A stretch of DNA of 64,000 nt from Bacteroidota bacterium (GTDB lineage: Bacteria > Bacteroidota > Bacteroidia > Chitinophagales > Chitinophagaceae): positions 186,001-250,000 of the forward strand of contig VGFK01000003.1 of NCBI GenBank assembly GCA_016868895.1. Reading direction: 5' to 3'. Shown in pieces: positions 6,808 through 46,921 of the stretch; position 1 is the first letter of the stretch; the number at the start of each line of letters is the position of its first letter. The notes beneath the pieces were generated by a model. The model made no database searches and was not told the DNA's origin. It was given only the letters and a program-made list of their open reading frames with translations. The position numbers and the translations under genes were made by a program.

Positions 6808-9800
6808 TTAAAAGCCAATTTGAATTCCGGCGGTTATATTTCTGCTCTGCGGTATGATACCCGTGGATGTACCGACGAATTCGATATCATAGCTGAACCA
6901 ATCGGAGGAGGTCCAAAGGTTGGTTCCCTGCAGATAGAAGCGTGCGCTTCCAATCTTAAGGCGTCTGATCAGATCGCTGTTCAGATCGTAAGAAAGGGTG
7001 ACGTTCTTCAAGCGGATGTAATCAGCTCTAAACAGTGGTCTGCTTCCCGAGAGCGCACTTGAACCTTTGGTTTCAGCACCGTTGGCATTCATTCTCGGAT
7101 ACCAGGTGATTTGTCCTGGTGTAGTCCATCTATTATCGTATACGTCTACGAAGCTGTTCAGACGGGCAATGTTCTCGATCATGAAGTTTACCTGACCGTC
7201 AGAAGCCACTCTGCCGTACTCATACTGGAAGAATACGTCTAGTGTAAATCCTTTCCAGGTAAAGTTATTGGTCCAACCACCCCAGAAATCAGGCTGAGAG
7301 TCGCCAACATATACACGGTCTCTGTTTTGCGGCTGATAGGTTACGTTGCCCAAGGTATCGTACCACATGGGTCGACCAGTAGCGGCATTCACACCCGCAT
7401 ACTGCTGTGTGAAGATGGAGCCAATTGAGCGACCAACACGGGTGCTGGGATCACCGGGCAATTCAATCAGATCGGCATACAATTTCTTAACCCTGTTGTG
7501 ATTGAAAGTAAAGATGAAGGTGCTGGTCCAGTTGAATCCACCGGGTGAAAGTGAACGAATCGGCTGAACGCCCAGGGTCAACTCGATACCGCGGTTTTGA
7601 ATGGAACCTACGTTACGGGTGATGCTGGAGAAGCCTGTCGTCAATTGCACCGGTTGTGACAACAACAGATCGGCTGTGATTTTATCATATGCCTCTACCG
7701 AACCGAATACTTTGTTATTGAACAATGAGAAGTCAATACCCAAGTTGGTGGTCTTGTTTTTCTCCCACCTCAATTCAGGGTTGGCTAACTGGCTAAAGGT
7801 GATACCGGGTGCTCCGCTATACGGTGAAGCGGCACCATACAGACCCAAACCGTCAAAGTTTCCAATCTGGTCGTTACCGGTGATACCATATGAAGCCCTC
7901 AAGCGCAATGAATTGATCCATTTGCTATTCTCGAGGAATTTCTCATTATCGATGTTCCAAGCCAAACGCAGCGATGGGAACAGACCATAGCGATACTGTT
8001 CACCGAAACGGGATGATCCGTCGTAGCGAAGAATACCACTCACGATGTACTTGCCATCATAATTATAGTTCAGGTTGGTGAACGCACTTTGTCTTCTGTA
8101 ACCGGTGAAGAATTCGGTTGTGGACAACGGCGTTGCTGCAGTGTTCAAGGTAGTGAACTGGAAAGTTGGGAAACCTTCTGCGGTTGCGCCAATGCCTTCC
8201 TGATTTTCTTTTCTGTACTCAAATCCTACCAAACCATCGATTTTGTGCTTGTCTTCAACATTGAAATTGAAGTTCAGGGTTTGAGTAGAGATGAGGTTGG
8301 TATTCCATTCGCTTTCCACCTGACCCAGACCTTTCCGGTTGAATCCATCCGGAGTTCTTGGATCGGTAAAGCGGTTTCCTTGTACCAGACGATAGTCCAA
8401 TCCAAAGAATGCGCGGTAGTTCAACCAGGGCCGGAGCTTGTAGTCGGCAGTAATATTTCCCACCAACTGATTGGTGCGGTTGAAACCCTTATTGAACTCG
8501 TTAACTGCAATCACATTTTGGTTCAGTACACCTGCAATATTTGCAGGGGGAACACCAAAATAGGTTCCATTCGGGTTGTAGATCGCGTTGAACGGAAGTA
8601 CAGTGGCAGAGGCAAACGCAGGACTACCCAGGAATGAACCCGAAGTAGCAAATGGTACGTTTTGATCAAACGTACTGGCATTGATGGACGTGCTCAGGGT
8701 GAGACGATCGGTAGCCTTGTTGGTAAGGTCCAACTTCATGGTCCCCCTTTTGAAATTGGCTTTGGATACGATGGCCTCTTGAACATTATATGAACCGGAT
8801 AAACGGAACGTTGTGCGGTCGTTACCACCTGCTGCACTCAATTCGTAGTTTTGAATGGCGCCGGATTTGAAGGCTGCATCCTGCCAATCATAGGTGGGAA
8901 GCGCATTGATAGCATCCAATGCAGCTTTATCAGTCGTCACGTTTGTGATGGGGATTCTGTACTCATTCAAAACAAAACGACGGATATCCAGGTTGCTGGC
9001 CGGAAGGTTATTCACATTGCCCACTGCTTCAGCTCTGAGCTGAAACAGTTGTTGAGAGTTCAAAACTTCCAATTTGCGGAGAGCAGTCGCCTGTCCAAAA
9101 TATGTATTGAACTGGAACTTGGTTTTACCCGCTTTACCTTTTTTAGTCGTTACGATCACCACACCATTCGATGCTTGCGCACCATAGATCGCTGCCGAAG
9201 CAGCATCTTTTAAGATGTCGATCGACTCAATATCGTTTGGATTTAAAAAAGCCAGAGGATTTGATTCAGTATAGTTTGCGTCACTGCGGGTGTTCAACTG
9301 TACACCATCAATGACAAACAACGGCTGCGTACCCGCCAGGAATGAACCGGTACCGCGGATGCGGATGTTGATACCGCCACCGGGGATACCGTTGTTGGCT
9401 TGAACCAATACACCGGCTGCACGTCCTTGCAGTGCCTTATCCAATGAAGGGTTGGGAAGGTTTTCGATCTCCTTGCCTCTAACGGTGGAAACCGCACCTG
9501 CTTCGTCTCGCTTTCTTCTGGTTTGATAGCCGGTGATGATCACCTCTTCCATTTTGCGGTCATCCATTTCCATGGTGACACTGACCGTTCCGTTTGCAGG
9601 AATGACGACTTCCTGTGCTGCTAAACCAACAGCTGAAATGATCAACGCTTTTGCTGAAGTAGGTACGCTGAAACTGAAATTACCACTTGCATTTGTTGTG
9701 GTTCCCAATCGGCTGCCTTTCACAATCACCGATGCATTGGCAATTGCATTGCCGGATGCATCCGCAACCTTACCGGAGACCGTCCGATTTTGTGCGGACA

Positions 9801-9852
9801 ATTGTCCCGCAAAAAGCAGAACCCCGCACAAAAGAATCAAGATTTTTCTCAT
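6808..9852 (-). CDS. SusC/RagA-family TonB-linked outer-membrane transporter
   Basis: TonB-dependent barrel that imports the ligand held by the SusD partner. It has 1014 residues: a signal peptide ending LSAQ (about residue 20), a CarboxypepD_reg-like beta domain (NRTVSGKVADASGN), a TonB-box-like stretch before the plug (VIITGYQ), a plug domain with the SusC signatures GRAAGV and PLFVIDGV, then a 22-strand barrel ending in a terminal aromatic (Phe). It is the first gene of a three-gene minus-strand operon with SusD and a small lipoprotein. The 221-base upstream region holds a candidate promoter. No anti-sigma/ECF pair adjoins it. Confidence 0.96.
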   Translation of the reverse strand: MRKILILLCGVLLFAGQLSAQNRTVSGKVADASGNAIANASVIVKGSRLGTTTNASGNFSFSVPTSAKALIISAVGLAAQEVVIPANGTVSVTMEMDDRKMEEVIITGYQTRRKRDEAGAVSTVRGKEIENLPNPSLDKALQGRAAGVLVQANNGIPGGGINIRIRGTGSFLAGTQPLFVIDGVQLNTRSDANYTESNPLAFLNPNDIESIDILKDAASAAIYGAQASNGVVIVTTKKGKAGKTKFQFNTYFGQATALRKLEVLNSQQLFQLRAEAVGNVNNLPASNLDIRRFVLNEYRIPITNVTTDKAALDAINALPTYDWQDAAFKSGAIQNYELSAAGGNDRTTFRLSGSYNVQEAIVSKANFKRGTMKLDLTNKATDRLTLSTSINASTFDQNVPFATSGSFLGSPAFASATVLPFNAIYNPNGTYFGVPPANIAGVLNQNVIAVNEFNKGFNRTNQLVGNITADYKLRPWLNYRAFFGLDYRLVQGNRFTDPRTPDGFNRKGLGQVESEWNTNLISTQTLNFNFNVEDKHKIDGLVGFEYRKENQEGIGATAEGFPTFQFTTLNTAATPLSTTEFFTGYRRQSAFTNLNYNYDGKYIVSGILRYDGSSRFGEQYRYGLFPSLRLAWNIDNEKFLENSKWINSLRLRASYGITGNDQIGNFDGLGLYGAASPYSGAPGITFSQLANPELRWEKNKTTNLGIDFSLFNNKVFGSVEAYDKITADLLLSQPVQLTTGFSSITRNVGSIQNRGIELTLGVQPIRSLSPGGFNWTSTFIFTFNHNRVKKLYADLIELPGDPSTRVGRSIGSIFTQQYAGVNAATGRPMWYDTLGNVTYQPQNRDRVYVGDSQPDFWGGWTNNFTWKGFTLDVFFQYEYGRVASDGQVNFMIENIARLNSFVDVYDNRWTTPGQITWYPRMNANGAETKGSSALSGSRPLFRADYIRLKNVTLSYDLNSDLIRRLKIGSARFYLQGTNLWTSSDWFSYDIEFVGTSTGIIPQSRNITAGIQIGF

Positions 9853-10002
9853 GACTTTTTCTTTGGTTAAATGGATGTTAACGAATTGCGAAAATATGAT
9901 AAGACAACTAATTTGCTCCCTTTGTTGCGTGTTTTACCGGAATATTCCCTCCGGAGCACATTACCGCCTTAAATTATCAATACAATATATAAAAAATAAC
10001 CT

Positions 10003-38488: not shown

Positions 38489-38554
38489 GTTAACATTGGC
38501 GTAACATACCGGTTACAATTGCGTAACGCATGGCTAACGCCCAATTAACGATAC
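38489..38554 (+). promoter_or_regulatory. Six tandem 11-bp repeats, Pho-box-like operator
   Basis: Six contiguous 11-base units start at 38489, 38500, 38511, 38522, 38533 and 38544. Their first seven bases read GTTAACA, CGTAACA, GGTTACA, CGTAACG, GCTAACG and ATTAACG: five of six share TAAC at unit positions 3-6, and the third has TTAC there. The 11-bp period (one helical turn) with a TTAACA-like core is the classic arrangement of PhoB/PhoP-family binding sites. The array ends five bases before the -7-like box of the TonB receptor gene, in the place of a -33 element, as expected for an activator. Confidence 0.6.
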
Positions 38555-38559
38555 TGAAA

Positions 38560-38567
38560 TTCCTTTG
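38560..38567 (+). promoter_or_regulatory. Candidate -7 box of the TonB-dependent receptor gene
   Basis: TTCCTTTG, one mismatch from TAnnTTTG, nine bases before the ATG at 38576. There is no TTG at the standard distance; the 11-bp repeats lie there instead. Confidence 0.45.
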
Positions 38568-38575
38568 CAAAACAA

Positions 38576-41401
38576 ATGAAGGATATGCCAAGGAAGTTTA
38601 CGGTTTCGTTGTTTATCATCACTTTTTCACTTGCGTTCTTGCAAACCGTCCTGGCTCAGGGCATTCGGTTGCAGGGAAAAGTGATCAATACCAAAAACGA
38701 ACCGGTTTCAGGGGCCTCAATTGTAATCGAGGAATTGAAGCGAACCCTGGTGGCGGATCTGGAAGGTCAATTCTCCACATCGGTGGAACCGGGTAAAAAA
38801 TACACCCTTACAGTTTCCAGTGTTGGGTACAGTACCAAAGTTGTGAGCGATGTGGACGTGGCTGCGGGAGCCGACAATACGGTGAGTATTGTGTTGGAAC
38901 CACAGTCCAAAAACAGCGAAGCCATTGTAATTCGATCCACCAGAAGGCAAGAGAGTACAGTCGCCCTGCTCACCTTCCAACGCAGCAATGCATCGTTATC
39001 CAGCGGACTGGCAGCGGATTTCATTCGCAGGACTCCAGATAAAAATACCGGTGAAGTATTGAAGCGTGTCAGCGGTGCTGCAGTACAAGACAATCGATTT
39101 GTTGTGGTGCGCGGGTTATCGGACCGTTACAACTCAGCCATGCTAAACTCTGCGCTGCTTCCCAGTTCGGAGCCGGATAAAAAAGCGTTTTCATTTGATA
39201 TGTTTCCTGCAGCGTTGATCGATAATATTGTGATCAATAAAACGGCTACTCCTGAATACACCGGTGAATTCTCAGGCGGACTGGTGCAGGTCAATACCCG
39301 TGATATACCGGCAAAAGATATTATTTCTGTGGGTTTTGGGTTGGGGTACAACAATCAATCCACATTCCGCCCCTTCACGTCCAACAAGCGCAACGCCTAT
39401 GATTGGTTGGGGTTTGACGATGGCACACGCAATATTCCGGATAGTTTTCCTGCTACTGCCCAGGAGTACCGTGCATTGGGTAAAGATGCAGCGGGGTTAA
39501 AAAAACAAATTGAGTTGACGCAGCTTTTCCGTGGAGATGTGTATGTTCCCTATACAACCACTGCAGCTCCAATCAAGACCTTCAATTTTACATATGCACA
39601 GAATCATAAGCTAAAGAAGGGTGGTAATCTGGGCACTTTAGTAGGCATCAATTATAGAAATGCCATGCTCAAGTACAATGTAGAACGCTCGTTCTTTGAA
39701 TCAGATGGAACCACTGTTTTCAAATTCAATGATGAACAAAATCGGTACCAAACCAATCTGGGCGGTGTTGTCAATATCGCATGGGTAAAAGGAAAGCATA
39801 AGGTTTCCTTTAAAAACCTGTTCAATCAATTGTACGAGGATAACTATTATACCCGCACAGGATACAATACCAATCGGCAAAACGATATTTTATTTTATTC
39901 ATCTTATTTGAATCAGCGTTCGCTGTTCAGTTCTCAGTTGGAGGGCGAACATCAATTATCGCGTTCCGGCATCAAATTCAAATGGAATGGAAATGCGGCG
40001 TACAATTGGAAAACCCAGCCTGATTTAAGAAGTGCCTTATATGCAAGGGCCATCAATACCAATCAGCCGTTTGAAATTGACCCCGATGATACCCGCAGAT
40101 TTTACAGCGATTTGAAGGATTACAGTGCAGGTACGGGTGGACAATTCATTGTGCCGATGAACTGGGGTGGAAAAGACAAGCAAACCTTGAAGTTTGGGGG
40201 GTCTACGCTCGTGCGGTTTCGCGATTTCCGAAGCAGAATTTTCAGGTACAACATCACCAACTTCAATTCATTTGTAGCGGCCAATGCCAAGAAGCCAGTT
40301 GATAAAGCATTTTTCTATGATAACATGGGGGAGTCGGGATACATCCTGGAAGATTTCACCAATAACCAAGACCGCTACTTTGGGGTGTCTGTCCTGAACG
40401 CAGCCTATACACAATTGGACAATAAGTTTGGTCCTTTCAGAATGATCTGGGGCCTTCGGGCTGAAAATTTTCAGCAATTGCTTACCTCCAAAGAGCAAAC
40501 CGGGAGAAGAAGTACTCGCCTCACTGAGAAGTGGGATGTTCTTCCATCCGCCAATGTGCTGTTGAATCTCAGTGCCAAACAAAATCTCCGCCTTTCTGCC
40601 AGTCGGACAGTCGCCCGCCCAGAATTCCGTGAACTCGCACCATTTGCTTTCTATGATTATGAAATGAATTATGGCACACAGGGTGATACTGCATTGAGAA
40701 GGTCATCGGTTTTGAATTATGATCTTCGTTATGAGCTTTATCCAAAGGGTGGTGAAGCCACCAGTGTGGGAGTGTTTTACAAAGACTTCACCGATCCTAT
40801 AGAATTCCGACTCGATCCCGGAAGTAATGCGGACAACCGTCGTTATTTCTACCAAAACGCAGTCAGTGCCCGCACACTTGGTTTTGAGATTGAAGTTCGA
40901 AAAGGACTTGATTTTATCGATGCATCACTCAAAGATTTCAGCCTATTCGGAAATTATACCTACTTGCGTTCACAGGTGGTATTTGACGACCTCGGTGCAG
41001 ATCAAAAGCAAATCAAAGCAAATCGTCCGTTGCAGGGACAATCGCCTTATTTGATCAATGCCGGTATCCAATACAACGGTAACTCGTTCAATGCATCCCT
41101 GATGTACAATCGCGTGGGCCAGCGCCTGACACTGGTGGGTAACGAGGAATTTCCTAACGTATACGAACGACCACGTAACCAGCTGGATCTTCAGCTTTCT
41201 AAAAAGGTGTTCAACAACCAAGGGGAGTTCCGCATCAACTTTCAGGATATGCTGAATAACACATTTTTCTTCTATGAAAACGTAGACGAGAATACAGCGT
41301 ACACCAAGGGAGTGGATCGGCTTTTCAACGCATACACGCCAGGTTCTACCATAACAGTAGGATTTACCTATGATTTTGAAATCGGAAAAAACAGAAAATA
41401 A
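38576..41401 (+). CDS. TonB-dependent receptor with CarboxypepD_reg N-domain
   Basis: Outer-membrane active transporter of 941 residues (starts at 38576 or 38585 both give the signal peptide ending FLQTVLAQ). An N-terminal beta-sandwich (RLQGKVINTKNEPVSGASIVIE) is followed by a plug domain (VVVRGLSDRYNSAMLNS) and a barrel with a terminal TFTYDFEIGKNRK-like end. It lacks the SusC-type GRxxGV/PLxVIDG signatures and a SusD partner. The next gene, 19 bases on, encodes a lipoprotein. Upstream Pho-box-like repeats and the adjacent two-component system suggest control by an environmental signal, possibly phosphate. Confidence 0.9.
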   Translation: MKDMPRKFTVSLFIITFSLAFLQTVLAQGIRLQGKVINTKNEPVSGASIVIEELKRTLVADLEGQFSTSVEPGKKYTLTVSSVGYSTKVVSDVDVAAGADNTVSIVLEPQSKNSEAIVIRSTRRQESTVALLTFQRSNASLSSGLAADFIRRTPDKNTGEVLKRVSGAAVQDNRFVVVRGLSDRYNSAMLNSALLPSSEPDKKAFSFDMFPAALIDNIVINKTATPEYTGEFSGGLVQVNTRDIPAKDIISVGFGLGYNNQSTFRPFTSNKRNAYDWLGFDDGTRNIPDSFPATAQEYRALGKDAAGLKKQIELTQLFRGDVYVPYTTTAAPIKTFNFTYAQNHKLKKGGNLGTLVGINYRNAMLKYNVERSFFESDGTTVFKFNDEQNRYQTNLGGVVNIAWVKGKHKVSFKNLFNQLYEDNYYTRTGYNTNRQNDILFYSSYLNQRSLFSSQLEGEHQLSRSGIKFKWNGNAAYNWKTQPDLRSALYARAINTNQPFEIDPDDTRRFYSDLKDYSAGTGGQFIVPMNWGGKDKQTLKFGGSTLVRFRDFRSRIFRYNITNFNSFVAANAKKPVDKAFFYDNMGESGYILEDFTNNQDRYFGVSVLNAAYTQLDNKFGPFRMIWGLRAENFQQLLTSKEQTGRRSTRLTEKWDVLPSANVLLNLSAKQNLRLSASRTVARPEFRELAPFAFYDYEMNYGTQGDTALRRSSVLNYDLRYELYPKGGEATSVGVFYKDFTDPIEFRLDPGSNADNRRYFYQNAVSARTLGFEIEVRKGLDFIDASLKDFSLFGNYTYLRSQVVFDDLGADQKQIKANRPLQGQSPYLINAGIQYNGNSFNASLMYNRVGQRLTLVGNEEFPNVYERPRNQLDLQLSKKVFNNQGEFRINFQDMLNNTFFFYENVDENTAYTKGVDRLFNAYTPGSTITVGFTYDFEIGKNRK

Positions 41402-41420
41402 CGCAATAAAAACAGCAATT

Positions 41421-42800
41421 ATGAAAAGAATCGTTTTTGGTTTAGTGACACTCATGATGTTGGCAACAACTTCATGCATCAAGGTCAATTTCCAGGAGAC
41501 CATTAACAATAATGGTACCGGTGGTGGCGGCACAACTGATCCCCAGGACCCCGCTACCAACGGAGGTGTGATTCAGGGAATTTTGAATAAAAGCTATTAC
41601 CTCCCTAAAGGGAAATACACCCTCAAGGGATATGTGTATGTTACCGATGGCAACACATTGACCATTGCTCCTGGCAGTGTGGTAGTCAGCGACATCACCG
41701 AGAAAGGCGCCTTGATCATTGAAAGAGGTGCTAAGCTCATTGCTGATGGCCGTGCTACACTCCCCATTGTTTTCACCAGCGGTAAGGCTATTGGACAGCG
41801 TACACCCGGTGATTGGGGTGGAATCATTTTATTGGGCAAAGCTCCCACCAATCGTCCACTTGATCCGGCCCCGGTCATCGAAGGTGGAGTTGGCCGTAAA
41901 TACGGTGGAACAGATCCCAATGATGACAGTGGAATACTCCGTTATGTACGCATCGAGTTTGCTGGTATTGCTGCTGAGCCCGGTTCGGAGATCAATGGAT
42001 TGACCATGGGTGGGGTAGGTTCTGGCACAATCATTGAAAATGTTCAGGTGTCGTTTGGTAACGATGATGCATATGAATTTTTTGGAGGAACCGTGAACTG
42101 CAAGAACTTGATTGCGTTTGCTACTGCGGATGATGATTTCGATTTTGACTTTGGCTATAGTGGTCGTATTCAATACGGCATTGCGTGCCGCAAACCTGAT
42201 TTTGTTGATGGTGGTGATGCCGGTAATGGAATCGAGTGCGATAACGATGGAACCGGAACTATCACCTCACCCATTACGCGACCTGTTCTCAGTAATTTTA
42301 CATTTGTTGGTCCCAATAACGCACCCGGTACAGCAGCCAATCATAATTTTGGAAACCGCTGGAGAAGATCTACACAGTTTGTGCTTCGGAATTCTATTAT
42401 GATCGGATGGCAAAAAGCAGGATTTTCGCTAGAGTCAGATAATACTATTCGTTCTTATTTTACGGATAACACATCAGAGTTCAAGAATAATCTTTTGCAT
42501 GCTGTTGCACTACCATACCGTACTGGAAATGCAGCAATCGCAACAAATGATCAGTTAAAGGCAAAAGCTGAGTCTGAAGGATGCATCACCTATGCAAGCG
42601 GGGACGATGTTCAGTTGACGGCACCTTATTATTCTCTTACGCCTAATTTCCTTCCTAAGACCGGTTCTCCGGCTTTAACTGGTGCAAGCTATACCGGATT
42701 GAATGCCTTTTTCACTACCGGAACCTTCCGTGGTGCAATGGGTGCAACGGATTGGACGAAGGGTTGGGCCAACTGGGATCCGCAGACAGTAGCATACTAA
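41421..42800 (+). CDS. Lipoprotein with predicted beta-helix, partner of the TonB receptor
   Basis: Outer-membrane lipoprotein of 459 residues (ATG at 41421; lipobox ATTSC), then a low-complexity Gly/Asn/Thr linker and a repetitive beta-rich body. Segments such as GALIIERGAKLIADG, LPIVFTSGKA and GDWGGIILLGKAPTN resemble right-handed beta-helix rungs. I recall homologues in other Bacteroidota annotated as hypothetical or, wrongly, as multidrug transporters. It probably binds or caps the ligand of the TonB receptor 19 bases upstream, in the way SusD serves SusC; this is inference. It ends at a terminator. Confidence 0.75.
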   Translation: MKRIVFGLVTLMMLATTSCIKVNFQETINNNGTGGGGTTDPQDPATNGGVIQGILNKSYYLPKGKYTLKGYVYVTDGNTLTIAPGSVVVSDITEKGALIIERGAKLIADGRATLPIVFTSGKAIGQRTPGDWGGIILLGKAPTNRPLDPAPVIEGGVGRKYGGTDPNDDSGILRYVRIEFAGIAAEPGSEINGLTMGGVGSGTIIENVQVSFGNDDAYEFFGGTVNCKNLIAFATADDDFDFDFGYSGRIQYGIACRKPDFVDGGDAGNGIECDNDGTGTITSPITRPVLSNFTFVGPNNAPGTAANHNFGNRWRRSTQFVLRNSIMIGWQKAGFSLESDNTIRSYFTDNTSEFKNNLLHAVALPYRTGNAAIATNDQLKAKAESEGCITYASGDDVQLTAPYYSLTPNFLPKTGSPALTGASYTGLNAFFTTGTFRGAMGATDWTKGWANWDPQTVAY

Positions 42801-42869: not shown

Positions 42870-43913
42870 TTATCCGCATTTCAGGGTAAACCCAAACGTA
42901 GTGCCAACCCCCGGGGTGCTTCGGGCATGGATGATTTGTCCGTGTGCTTCGATGATGTGTTTGCAAATGGCCAGTCCCAGCCCCGTGCCGCCAATGTTGC
43001 GGCTTCTTCCGTAATCTGTTCGATAGAACCGTTCAAAGATCCTGGGAAGGTGTTCTTCTGCGATTCCGATGCCATCGTCGCTGATTTCAATGAGGGCAGT
43101 CGCACCGTCTGTCTTGTATATACTGGCTTCCACTTTTCCATCCTGGTTTCCGTACTTGATGGCATTGTCTACCAGGTTCGTGACCACCTGCCTGATCTTT
43201 TCTTTGTCTGCCAGTACGACTACCGGTTGCTCGCACCCTTTTTTAATGAGGCACTGGGTATTTTTTGATTCCACTTTTATGGACAGCGTTTCAAAGACTT
43301 CCACGATGAGATCCTGTATTATGAATTGCTGCTGATGAAGTTCTTGCTTTCCGCTTTCCAATCGGGTGATCTCATCCAAATCCGAAATCAGGTGAATCAA
43401 TCGCTCGGTGTTTTTAAAGGCATTGTTCAAAAAGCGGGTTCGAACTTCTGGATTTTCCGAAGCGCCCGCAATCAATGTCTCCAGATATCCTTGGATAGCA
43501 AAAGCGGGAGTTTTGAATTCATGGGATAGGTTCTGTAAGAATTCTTTACGGAATGCTTCATTGCGCTCCAGCACCTCCATCTCAGCTTTGCGTTGATCTG
43601 CCCATTGCAATACTTCTTCCCCCACTTCATCGATGCTTTGCTTGGGTAGCAGTTTATTGAGGTAAAACTCTTCCCGTTTGGAAGCTTTGGTCTGATGGAT
43701 GAATTTATAAATTAGTTTTATTTTCCTTTCAACAAACTCAGTGATGAGATACCGGGCAAGAAAAAAGCTGATGCCCATCCCAATAGATCCGGACACGAGT
43801 GCAGCAACAAGGTTTCCATTCACCAACAACACAATGAGGAAAATCAACAGCGCCGATACCAGCGCTATGATGAATGAAATTCCTTTGGGTGTAGGGTTCT
43901 TGGAAGAGAACAT
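42870..43913 (-). CDS. Sensor histidine kinase, PhoR-like
   Basis: Membrane kinase of 347 residues. Two N-terminal helices (about 12-32 and 35-55) with almost no periplasmic loop, a linker coiled coil, phosphoacceptor His131 in NLSHEF, N-box NLVDNAIKYG, G1 box DDGIGI, F-box FERFYRTD and G2 box GGTGLGLAI. The missing extracellular sensor domain matches PhoR-type kinases that sense through other proteins. It follows the response regulator by 16 bases and is convergent with the receptor-lipoprotein operon. Confidence 0.9.
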   Translation of the reverse strand: MFSSKNPTPKGISFIIALVSALLIFLIVLLVNGNLVAALVSGSIGMGISFFLARYLITEFVERKIKLIYKFIHQTKASKREEFYLNKLLPKQSIDEVGEEVLQWADQRKAEMEVLERNEAFRKEFLQNLSHEFKTPAFAIQGYLETLIAGASENPEVRTRFLNNAFKNTERLIHLISDLDEITRLESGKQELHQQQFIIQDLIVEVFETLSIKVESKNTQCLIKKGCEQPVVVLADKEKIRQVVTNLVDNAIKYGNQDGKVEASIYKTDGATALIEISDDGIGIAEEHLPRIFERFYRTDYGRSRNIGGTGLGLAICKHIIEAHGQIIHARSTPGVGTTFGFTLKCG

Positions 43914-43929
43914 GCTGCAATCTACGAAA

Positions 43930-44610
43930 TCAGATCTCGAATTTGTATCCTACTCCCTTTACGGTAGTGATACAGTCGATTCCCAGCTTCTGTCTGATCT
44001 TTCTTACGTGAACATCAATGGTACGATCGCCGACAATCACTTCTGATCCCCAAATCGTATTTAAAATCTCGCTGCGCAAAAAAACCCTGCCGGGCTTGGA
44101 AGCCAGAAAATTCAGGAGTTCAAATTCTTTTTTGGCCAGGGGAACTGGCTGTCCCTGGAAATACACCATGTATTCTTCCGGTACAATGCGGAGATCTCCA
44201 ATTTCGATGGAAGTAGAACTTTCCTGTACATGGGTTCTGCGCAAAAGCGATTGGACCTTGGAGACCATCAGTTTGGGAGAGATCGGTTTGCTGATGAAAT
44301 CATCCGCCCCGTATTCCAATCCTTTCACATGGGAGAGTTCGTCATTCAATGCAGTTAAAAAAATGATCAGTGTTTTTTGATACTCGGGTTGTCCGCGCAG
44401 AATCTTGCACACTTCGATTCCATTTTTCTTAGGCATCATGATATCCAATATGATCAGATCGGGTTTCTGTTCTTTTGCCTTGATCAATGCTTGATCACCA
44501 TCTTTAGCAGTGATGACGTCGTATCCATGTAGCTGTAGGTTGTAACTGATGATTTCCAGGATATCCGCTTCATCATCTGCAATCAGGACTTTTTTGCCGG
44601 CCGGAGCCAT
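43930..44610 (-). CDS. OmpR/PhoB-family response regulator
   Basis: 226 residues: receiver domain with acidic pair DDE, phosphoacceptor Asp56 in LIILDIMMP, Thr and Lys switch residues (FLTAL, FISKPIS), then a winged-helix DNA-binding domain (LLNFLASKPGRVFLRSEILNTIWG, RTIDVHVRKIRQKLG). The ATG at 44610 is chosen because an upstream TTG overlaps the -7 box. It is the first gene of a two-gene operon with the histidine kinase. PhoB-family proteins bind 11-bp direct repeats, which are present before the TonB receptor gene 5.9 kb away. Confidence 0.93.
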   Translation of the reverse strand: MAPAGKKVLIADDEADILEIISYNLQLHGYDVITAKDGDQALIKAKEQKPDLIILDIMMPKKNGIEVCKILRGQPEYQKTLIIFLTALNDELSHVKGLEYGADDFISKPISPKLMVSKVQSLLRRTHVQESSTSIEIGDLRIVPEEYMVYFQGQPVPLAKKEFELLNFLASKPGRVFLRSEILNTIWGSEVIVGDRTIDVHVRKIRQKLGIDCITTVKGVGYKFEI

Positions 44611-44662: not shown

Positions 44663-44714
44663 CCATTCATTACCAAATTGTTAACTCACCCTTCCGGACC
44701 TTCTGAATTAATAG

Positions 44715-44722
44715 TAGTTTTG
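44715..44722 (+). promoter_or_regulatory. Candidate -7 box of the 731-residue secreted protein gene
   Basis: TAGTTTTG, exact TAnnTTTG, six bases before the ATG at 44729. No TTG at the standard distance. Confidence 0.5.
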
Positions 44723-44728
44723 TACCAG

Positions 44729-46921
44729 ATGATGCGTAGAGGACTTCTCCCATTGCTACTGGTTTTCATTGCTGCTGGTGTACGTGCTCAGGTACAGGAG
44801 GGGGGAGATGCGCGCACCAATGATATTCGTCGCGTTCAGGTTCACGAGGAAATCGATGCGCTTCAGTTTCGCATTTCGCTGATCGATGGAAAGAATGATG
44901 GTCGGGTTGGACTCACCCGCGATTCTTCCATCAACATGCTGCTGACCGAGATTTTCGGACAACATACAGATCATCTGCAGGATGCAATTGAATGGGATTC
45001 GGCAACCGATCACCGGATCAAGCTCAAGTATTTGACGGGACTCAAACTGGCGCTTGACGGGTACTACCGAAATGTCAGAAACTTCCGCATGCTCCCGGAA
45101 GAGGGAGCGGAACTGATGCAGGCGTATAGTTTATATTATGCGCTTGACCGCTCAGGGAAGAGCATCGCGCCCAGTGTGTATAACTATCATTATATCATCA
45201 ATTCGATACTGATTGGAAACGCGACGGTATTTTTTGAAAACCCGGGACTGCAACAGGCGCAGGCACGACTCTTTCGTCAGTATGCAGAAATCAATCCTGC
45301 AGATATCCTGCCACGGATAGAAAAATATTTGGACGAACCATTTGCGGATAGTCTGCTCATCATTGCAGCTCATGCGGCGCCGGAAAAATTTTACGACTAT
45401 GCCGCTTCTGGAGAAACACAGATTGGAAGAAAAATCAGAACCATCGATGAGCCGTTTGTTCAATTGATTGTGAAGATATCGAGCGATAAAAGCGGTCGAC
45501 TCATTTTTCCATTTGTACACTCCATTGTGCGCAACCGAATTTCTATCGACAGCATCAAAGGGTTCATACCCGATGATATCCGGTATTACAAACTTCTGAT
45601 CCGAACCCAGTTGCAGTACCTCGATGACATAGTTGCCGGAGATTACCCCATGCTGTACTCCGAAATGGGAAGCATGATCAAGCGCAAGGCGGAAGAAATA
45701 TTCATCAACGAAATCAATGCGCTTCACGATTCTCCCGATGAAGTACGGTTCAGGATCTTGCAACCATTGATGGCGCGTGAATTGTATTACATTCTTGTAA
45801 CGGGAGAAGATGTGATCTACACCTCCAGTTTCACAGGCGTGTACAGCCGCATGCTCAACCGCTCTCCTTACAAAACGGGGGATAGCCTTCTGGCCAGTGT
45901 GCGATACGATCGGTTCCGAAAATTCATTCGCATGGCAGCGGGGTATAACCGACTCGATCTTTTCTTGTCGACCCTCTCTTCCGACAGGGCCAGTAGCATC
46001 ATGCAGGAATTTGTGAGAGGATTGGACAACAGTGCCAGTCTGGAAGATGCTGTGGATGTGGCCGACTCCTACAGCAGCATCCGTGATCCGGAATTGCAAC
46101 TGCTGATCCGCAAAGAAATCGACAGCAGCCTTCAGGTGTATAAAGACCGAGGATCCCGAAGAGGAGAGGCGATCTACGACATCCTCCGATTGCTGTTCAT
46201 TTCTGTCAGCGACAGCAGCAACGAGCTTTCTGCCAAATACCGTATCCCTCCTGCCTATCAACTTCCCCGCACTGCACTATCGGATAGCGGTGGACTCGTT
46301 GTGCAGCAAGTATTTTTTTATGGAGATCAGGATGGCATCAATTCCTACTCCAATTTTCTTTCCATGTTCCGGGGTAAAAAAGAATGGAAGGTGGTGCAGC
46401 AGCCCAGTTGGGTGGAGATCCGGTCGGGCGGACCTCAGCCTGTTGCAATTTTTGCCAATAAGCCCTTGGATAATTCAAAAGGGGATGATCCCGATGCAAA
46501 AGCACAAAAATTGCTGAGTGAGTACCTGGCCGAAAATGGACTCCGGCCCGGAATCGTCATTCACCGAGGCCACAGTTACCATCTCCGGTATACCCTGGAG
46601 CAGTTGCCAAGCTCTGCACGATTGGTGGTGTTGGGATCGTGTGGGAGTTATCAAAACCTGGATGCTGTTTTGAAAAAATGTCCGGATGCGCAAATTGTTT
46701 CTTCAAAAGAAGTTGGTAGCGCATTGGTCAACGAGCCCATTCTTCGTGCATTAAATGAATCGTTGCGCAAAGACAAACAAATTGACTGGATCCGCATGTG
46801 GGACCGCCTGGAGAAAATACTATCAGATGGAATAGCCAAAGAGCGATTTGAAAACTATATTCCTCCGCACAAGAACCTGGGAGCCTTGTTCATCACTGCT
46901 TATAATAACCGGGAGCTATAA
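44729..46921 (+). CDS. Large secreted protein of unknown function with possible His/Cys peptidase-like C-terminus
   Basis: 731 residues from the ATG at 44729 (or 730 from 44732) with a signal peptide (GLLPLLLVFIAAGVRAQ). I do not recognise the main body (about residues 25-560), which is helical with no clear motif. Near the C-terminus a hydrophobic strand leads to His612 (GIVIHRGHSYH) and, 26 residues on, a second strand to Cys638 (LVVLGSCGSYQ). This strand-His, helix, strand-Cys order is seen in clan CD peptidases (caspase, gingipain) and CHAT domains. No T9SS tail is present, so it probably stays in the periplasm. It precedes an MsbA-like exporter by 13 bases. Confidence 0.6.
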   Translation: MMRRGLLPLLLVFIAAGVRAQVQEGGDARTNDIRRVQVHEEIDALQFRISLIDGKNDGRVGLTRDSSINMLLTEIFGQHTDHLQDAIEWDSATDHRIKLKYLTGLKLALDGYYRNVRNFRMLPEEGAELMQAYSLYYALDRSGKSIAPSVYNYHYIINSILIGNATVFFENPGLQQAQARLFRQYAEINPADILPRIEKYLDEPFADSLLIIAAHAAPEKFYDYAASGETQIGRKIRTIDEPFVQLIVKISSDKSGRLIFPFVHSIVRNRISIDSIKGFIPDDIRYYKLLIRTQLQYLDDIVAGDYPMLYSEMGSMIKRKAEEIFINEINALHDSPDEVRFRILQPLMARELYYILVTGEDVIYTSSFTGVYSRMLNRSPYKTGDSLLASVRYDRFRKFIRMAAGYNRLDLFLSTLSSDRASSIMQEFVRGLDNSASLEDAVDVADSYSSIRDPELQLLIRKEIDSSLQVYKDRGSRRGEAIYDILRLLFISVSDSSNELSAKYRIPPAYQLPRTALSDSGGLVVQQVFFYGDQDGINSYSNFLSMFRGKKEWKVVQQPSWVEIRSGGPQPVAIFANKPLDNSKGDDPDAKAQKLLSEYLAENGLRPGIVIHRGHSYHLRYTLEQLPSSARLVVLGSCGSYQNLDAVLKKCPDAQIVSSKEVGSALVNEPILRALNESLRKDKQIDWIRMWDRLEKILSDGIAKERFENYIPPHKNLGALFITAYNNREL

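Follow-up and report, generated by a model that had tools for sequence, protein, structure and literature searches.

Here we show that a TonB-dependent receptor gene in the 64-kb stretch of DNA analysed in this study (hereafter, the window) is preceded by six head-to-tail 11-bp repeats (38489-38554, forward strand), that this array is conserved and phase-locked to the -7 box upstream of homologous receptors, where six units are the usual size, and that similar arrays recur before pst, phoX and phoB genes of relatives. We propose, with considerable confidence, that the array is a PhoB operator (Pho box) standing in place of the -33 element, which would drive class II activation of the receptor and its partner gene under phosphate starvation; that it acts as a genuine phosphate switch is very probable. 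With less assurance, but more probably than not, Bacteroidota would possess their own kind of Pho box, a TTAACATT-like element of 11-bp period held in phase with the -7 box TTTG, of which the receptor promoter would carry a fixed six-unit (three-dimer) version.

Bacteroidota abound in soil and water, habitats in which phosphate is often growth-limiting. If the proposal is true, spacing by whole 11-bp steps to the -7 box would be a rule for reading much of the phosphate regulon of the class from sequence, and such a phased rule with a fixed -7 distance would aid prediction of phosphate regulons. The six-unit geometry would also offer a direct test of the way in which an OmpR-family activator cooperates with a sigma factor specific for TAnnTTTG. 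Candidate Pho boxes were assessed by three features, namely (i) at least two direct repeat units at an 11-nt period, (ii) a position over the -35 (here -33) region, and (iii) a location before recognised Pho genes.

The array units start at 38489 (GTTAACATTGG), 38500 (CGTAACATACC), 38511 (GGTTACAATTG), 38522 (CGTAACGCATG), 38533 (GCTAACGCCCA) and 38544 (ATTAACGATAC). Runs were scored by adding up a 6-column core matrix at intervals of 11 bp. This matrix was drawn up by eye on the basis of receptor arrays, and the pst, phoX, phoB and PGI loci had no part in building it. The array scores 41.9 in the window, against a highest score of 20.8 and a mean of maxima of 13.6 in 40 first-order Markov shuffles, confirming the six direct repeats at an 11-nt period that the first-pass annotation had reported; other periods served as control (see below). 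The best run elsewhere in the window scores 15.7. When the pattern TAACN7TAACN7TAAC was searched for in the organism's own genome with at most one mismatch, four matches were obtained, all overlapping within the array and on the receptor strand. The same pattern read backwards, used as a control, gave 21 matches (13 forward, 8 reverse), and three-core matches as such are therefore not rare.

The promoter's -7 box, TTCCTTTG (consensus TAnnTTTG; 38560-38567, forward strand), was recognised from its sequence and from the phase lock in relatives, and its TTTG (38564-38567) starts 19 nt past the point at which the core of the last unit begins. In Flavobacterium psychrophilum the -7 box is described as spanning -12 to -5 (PMC9723704); if TTCCTTTG takes the same position, transcription would start near 38572, the array would extend from about -83 to -18, and its last unit would cover about -28 to -18. 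With this spacing the array overlies, by sequence only, the -33 region of the receptor promoter, which bears out an earlier claim to that effect. The predicted combination of a poor -7 box and a -33 place taken by the array suits an activated promoter.

The receptor ATG at 38585 follows the end of the array by 30 bp. This start is likelier than the ATG at 38576 given by the ORF tool, since 38576 reads TTG in a 90% identical homologue (L009) and 38585 is ATG in both. Domain searches and homologue alignment identify the gene (38585-41401, forward strand) as a TonB-dependent receptor with Plug, CarboxypepD_reg and OMP_b-brl_3 domains. The partner gene (41370-42800, forward strand) encodes a protein that is lipoprotein-like by eye and has no Pfam or NCBIfam match; its homologue adjoins the receptor in relatives (70/77 loci among the best 80 of 583 relatives). 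Elsewhere in the window, a second TonB-dependent receptor-like protein of 1014 aa (Plug and CarboxypepD_reg; 6808-9881, reverse strand) has a two-unit site (9882-9861) immediately before its start, with a score of 15.7 that lies inside the shuffled-window range.

Conservation was surveyed in two overlapping sets of receptor promoters. Receptor matches were found in 50 of 60 genomes, giving 56 rows; fragments (G006:C221, G026:C38, G015 and G028) were left unused, and L027 (truncated start) and L029 (51 nt upstream) were dropped, such that 50 regions remained, the window's own included. At period 11, 33 of these 50 regions (own region included) score at least 16, while at periods 8, 9, 10, 12, 13 and 14 the corresponding counts are 0, 1, 0, 0, 0 and 0. 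Arrays at this threshold precede 27 of the 28 better-scoring (closer) homologues, versus 6 of the 22 more distant ones. The second set consisted of the best 80 of 583 relatives, labelled for the most part as Chitinophaga, Pedobacter, Mucilaginibacter and other Chitinophagaceae or Sphingobacteriaceae, with identities of 36-80% and with no Flavobacterium johnsoniae record among the loci; three were dropped for short upstream DNA, leaving 77. Here 70 of the 77 promoters score at least 16 at period 11, compared with 0, 1, 2, 0, 0 and 0 at the other six periods, and it is important to note that the two sets are not independent, the second sharing genomes with the first (e.g. L265 and L011). Nothing scoring at least 12 was found in 5 of the 77 promoters (L313, L314, L316, L320 and L340), four of which are labelled Mucilaginibacter. 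Loss of period and core in orthologous promoters had been named beforehand as an observation that would count against an operator; both are conserved. The array also stays with the receptor in loci where the upstream letters differ and no longer resemble an rfbA start (L024-L026 and L030-L032, by eye), and control of the divergent rfbA is unlikely to be its main role.

The distance between array and -7 box is likewise kept. In the first set, 36 of 38 arrays scoring at least 12 have TTTG 19 nt, or 19 nt plus a multiple of 11, downstream of the base that opens the last core, and among the best 80 of 583 relatives it is in phase in 67 of 72. The exceptions in the latter set are L324, L326 and L327, where the script extended arrays beyond the -7 box, L336 (TTTC) and L333 (a low-complexity run). 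Chance, or a neutral tandem repeat without a role, would explain why the units differ outside the core, as they do in decaying repeats, yet a score of 41.9, when none of 40 shuffles exceeded 20.8, the period control, and the persistence across families of core, period and spacing to TTTG lead us to reject this explanation, to which we assign practically no weight.

Array size was counted on 68 in-phase arrays scoring at least 16, each anchored on its best six units, a choice that favours six. Numbered outwards from the promoter, units 1 to 6 exceed a core score of 2 bits in fractions of 0.93, 0.90, 0.91, 0.68, 0.69 and 0.76 of the arrays; the value drops to 0.04 for unit 7, whose near absence is less affected by the anchor. 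The first-pass annotation had considered six units long for such a site; they are instead the usual size at this promoter, which probably corresponds to three dimers. The averaged unit approximates (G/C)(T/G)TAACATTNN. For comparison, the PHO-box core of Bacillus is TTAACA.

The array's position could also be read as that of a repressor site, at which a regulator spread over about -83 to -18 would exclude polymerase, and the last unit, at about -28 to -18, does lie near the -7 box. However, a weak -7 box with an array at the -33 place suits activation, the phase lock suggests cooperation with polymerase, and the matching genes of F. johnsoniae are reported to rise on phosphate depletion (PMC8115612); we therefore regard repression as very improbable.

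The candidate regulator is encoded close by. The gene at 43930-44610 (reverse strand) encodes a response regulator that domain matches place in the OmpR family, in agreement with the first-pass annotation, and which we propose as the array binder. Its two best NCBIfam models are both PhoB (TIGR02154 and NF053854), with scores under the respective cut-offs (231.0/296.2 and 208.2/270 bits), and we therefore call it PhoB-like. It is accompanied by a short PhoR-like histidine kinase of 347 aa (42870-43913, reverse strand; HisKA and HATPase_c by domain search) in which a search for domains revealed none of a sensor type. Counted by eye, 22 of the 50 receptor-bearing genomes carry the regulator on the receptor's contig and no more than 15 kb away, and among the best 80 of 583 relatives the 8-kb flanks of 16 of 77 loci contain a regulator sharing at least 42% identity across 180 residues. 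Divergent from phoB is an ORF of 747 aa (44678-46921, forward strand) with no Pfam match over cut-off and no NCBIfam match; its stretches HRGHSYH and VVLGSCGS suggest a possible His/Cys peptidase pair. A similar ORF (by eye) adjoins phoBR in a relative, G016 (L131:1359-3557), where near-palindromic TTAACATTAA repeats with an 11-bp period on both strands are also seen between the kinase and the next gene (L131:5530-5580).

If the array answers to phosphate, related elements should be found at other phosphate genes, and in relatives this is the case, though not everywhere. Family, phoX and pst scans were confined to the leading 1600 nt of every oriented locus, a stretch that takes in coding DNA and, where a contig ends, a portion of the gene itself; 30 of 91 matching genomes were sampled for pstC and 30 of 44 for phoX, both within the class, and 30 of 58 for the regulator. 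Among the 30 pstC loci, 22 score at least 12 and 11 at least 16; 22 of 30 reach p <= 0.02 (100 shuffles each), and TT(T/C)G is in phase in 16 of the 22 runs scoring at least 12. The one pst locus labelled as being from the same family as the window (L240 of G094) is without an array (score 6.8). No array scoring at least 17 was found in 30 PstS-family loci, of which only L038 and L056 were checked gene by gene, and the real pst operon L038 scores only 15.5; pstC was then used instead. In the window's own family, 9 of 19 distinct phoX genes score at least 16 and 7 are in phase, with L188 and L205 counted once as a single gene, with the L203 array, which lies near the domain match and possibly inside a coding stretch, included in the count, and with many lower-scoring matches that may not be true PhoX. 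Class-wide, 2 of 30 phoX loci score at least 16, one of which (L160) is from the same family, and none of 6 phytase loci has an array; these counts argue against a uniform phylum-wide regulon. For the control gene PGI, 0 of 49 loci (0/20 and 0/29) score at least 16 and 2 of 49 at least 12, neither in phase, compared with 22 of 30 pst loci at the latter threshold; equal matching of controls had been foreseen as evidence against the motif. Arrays also precede partner-like genes (by eye) in L122 (18.9), L124 (24.2) and L128 (19.3), and an ORF adjoining the one in L124 resembles a PhoD-type phosphatase. The predicted Pho box form is present across much of these Bacteroidota.

A two-unit box, GTTAACAATTT GGTAATGAATG, lies upstream of phoB (44664-44685, reverse strand) and is proposed as an autoregulatory site; its score of 12.5 is not significant alone. 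Homologous phoB promoters have, in 25 of 30 loci, a two-unit box of the form TTAACAATTNNNTAAT as their highest-scoring run, placed 90-105 nt upstream of the start of the conserved receiver motif. TTTG follows at 31 nt in 13 loci and at 32 nt in 7 of the 30, such that 7 of 20 distances miss the phase by one base. Individual phoB boxes score only 10-13.5, and it is therefore their conservation that counts, among loci that are close relatives. An array (16.5) precedes phoB in L129.

The array could instead be bound by another OmpR-family regulator responding to a non-phosphate signal, such as redox or envelope stress. The organism's own genome encodes three OmpR-type DNA-binding (Trans_reg_C) proteins, two of them (L002 and L003) besides that of the window, and sites of Riemerella PhoP contain TTTAACA and are described as resembling the ArcA motif of E. 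coli (PMC9603813). Against this stand the adjacency of the receptor operon to phoBR, with regulator and receptor within 15 kb in the genomes counted above, and the presence of same-form arrays before pst operons and phoX and of a weak box before phoB. We accordingly consider control by L002 or L003 unlikely, if less so than repression, and retain PhoB as the preferred regulator.

The organism's genome, assembled as 1.75 Mb in 11 contigs with a completeness of 95.8%, yielded no match to PstC (TIGR02138) or PhoX (PF05787), and the location of the motif before Pho genes is judged there by the phoB box alone. It does encode a PBP_like_2 (PstS-family) protein (C3:339439-340176); the own-genome PstS-family match, L056, has no pstC beside it within 3.7 kb. 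The organism may lack an ABC phosphate importer, and, with neither PstC nor PhoX detected, its phosphate response may be a reduced one that has the receptor operon among its main outputs.

Taken together, we propose that phosphate starvation would lead the neighbouring kinase to phosphorylate the PhoB-like regulator, three head-to-tail dimers of which would occupy the six units from about -83 to -18. This stack would recruit sigma-A RNA polymerase directly (class II activation), as the poor -7 box and the array over the -33 place suggest, and the phase lock to TTTG would reflect contact between regulator and polymerase. The receptor and partner would then be expressed on phosphate starvation and would probably take up a phosphorus compound. 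The link to phosphate is drawn from the adjoining phoBR, from pst and phoX in relatives, from in vitro binding of B. fragilis PhoB to a 512-bp pstC promoter fragment (PMC3547664), and from induction of the phoBR cluster of F. johnsoniae (PUSIV), in which the TBDT and lipoprotein genes rise by 8.02 and 9.91 log2-fold, respectively, on phosphate depletion (PMC8115612). Conservation of period and core, together with the hits before phosphate genes, supports in silico the view of the first-pass annotation that this is an activator array of an OmpR-family regulator.

Comparison with known systems shows both shared and distinct features. The window matches PUSIV of F. johnsoniae in gene content (phoR, phoB, a TBDT with pf07715, pf13715 and pf14905, and a lipoprotein), and the likeness is one of gene content, the term "pho box" occurring 0 times in the main text of that paper (PMC8115612). 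In Riemerella anatipestifer, of the same phylum, the PhoP DAP-seq motif includes the TTTAACA core shared with the array, and PhoP also binds a TonB-dependent receptor promoter; the published description, unlike the window array, features no long phased array and no phosphate response (PMC9603813). A phoPR double mutant of Riemerella shows 8-fold higher pstS (PMC5399024), and the core alone therefore names neither regulator nor signal; a similar core may be recognised by another of the phylum's OmpR-type regulators. Putative Pho boxes have been noted at plcP clusters of marine bacteria, without a motif given (PMC4796936), and no definition of a Bacteroidota Pho box was found in the open-access literature searched, most subscription papers falling outside its scope. 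As with the Pho boxes of E. coli PhoB and of Bacillus and Streptomyces PhoP, the array consists of 11-nt direct repeat units, which in those systems the effector domain recognises in head-to-tail order, and operators of more than two units are known from the multiple PHO boxes at E. coli ugp and complex operators in Streptomyces (PMC4415409). Its core is TTAACA-like, in contrast to CTGTCAT or GTTCACC in known PHO boxes (PMC4415409), and, unlike these, six units are usual at the receptor promoter and are phase-locked to the Bacteroidota -7 box. As far as the open-access literature searched and the present analyses show, there is no precedent for the core, for six units as the usual size or for the phase rule.
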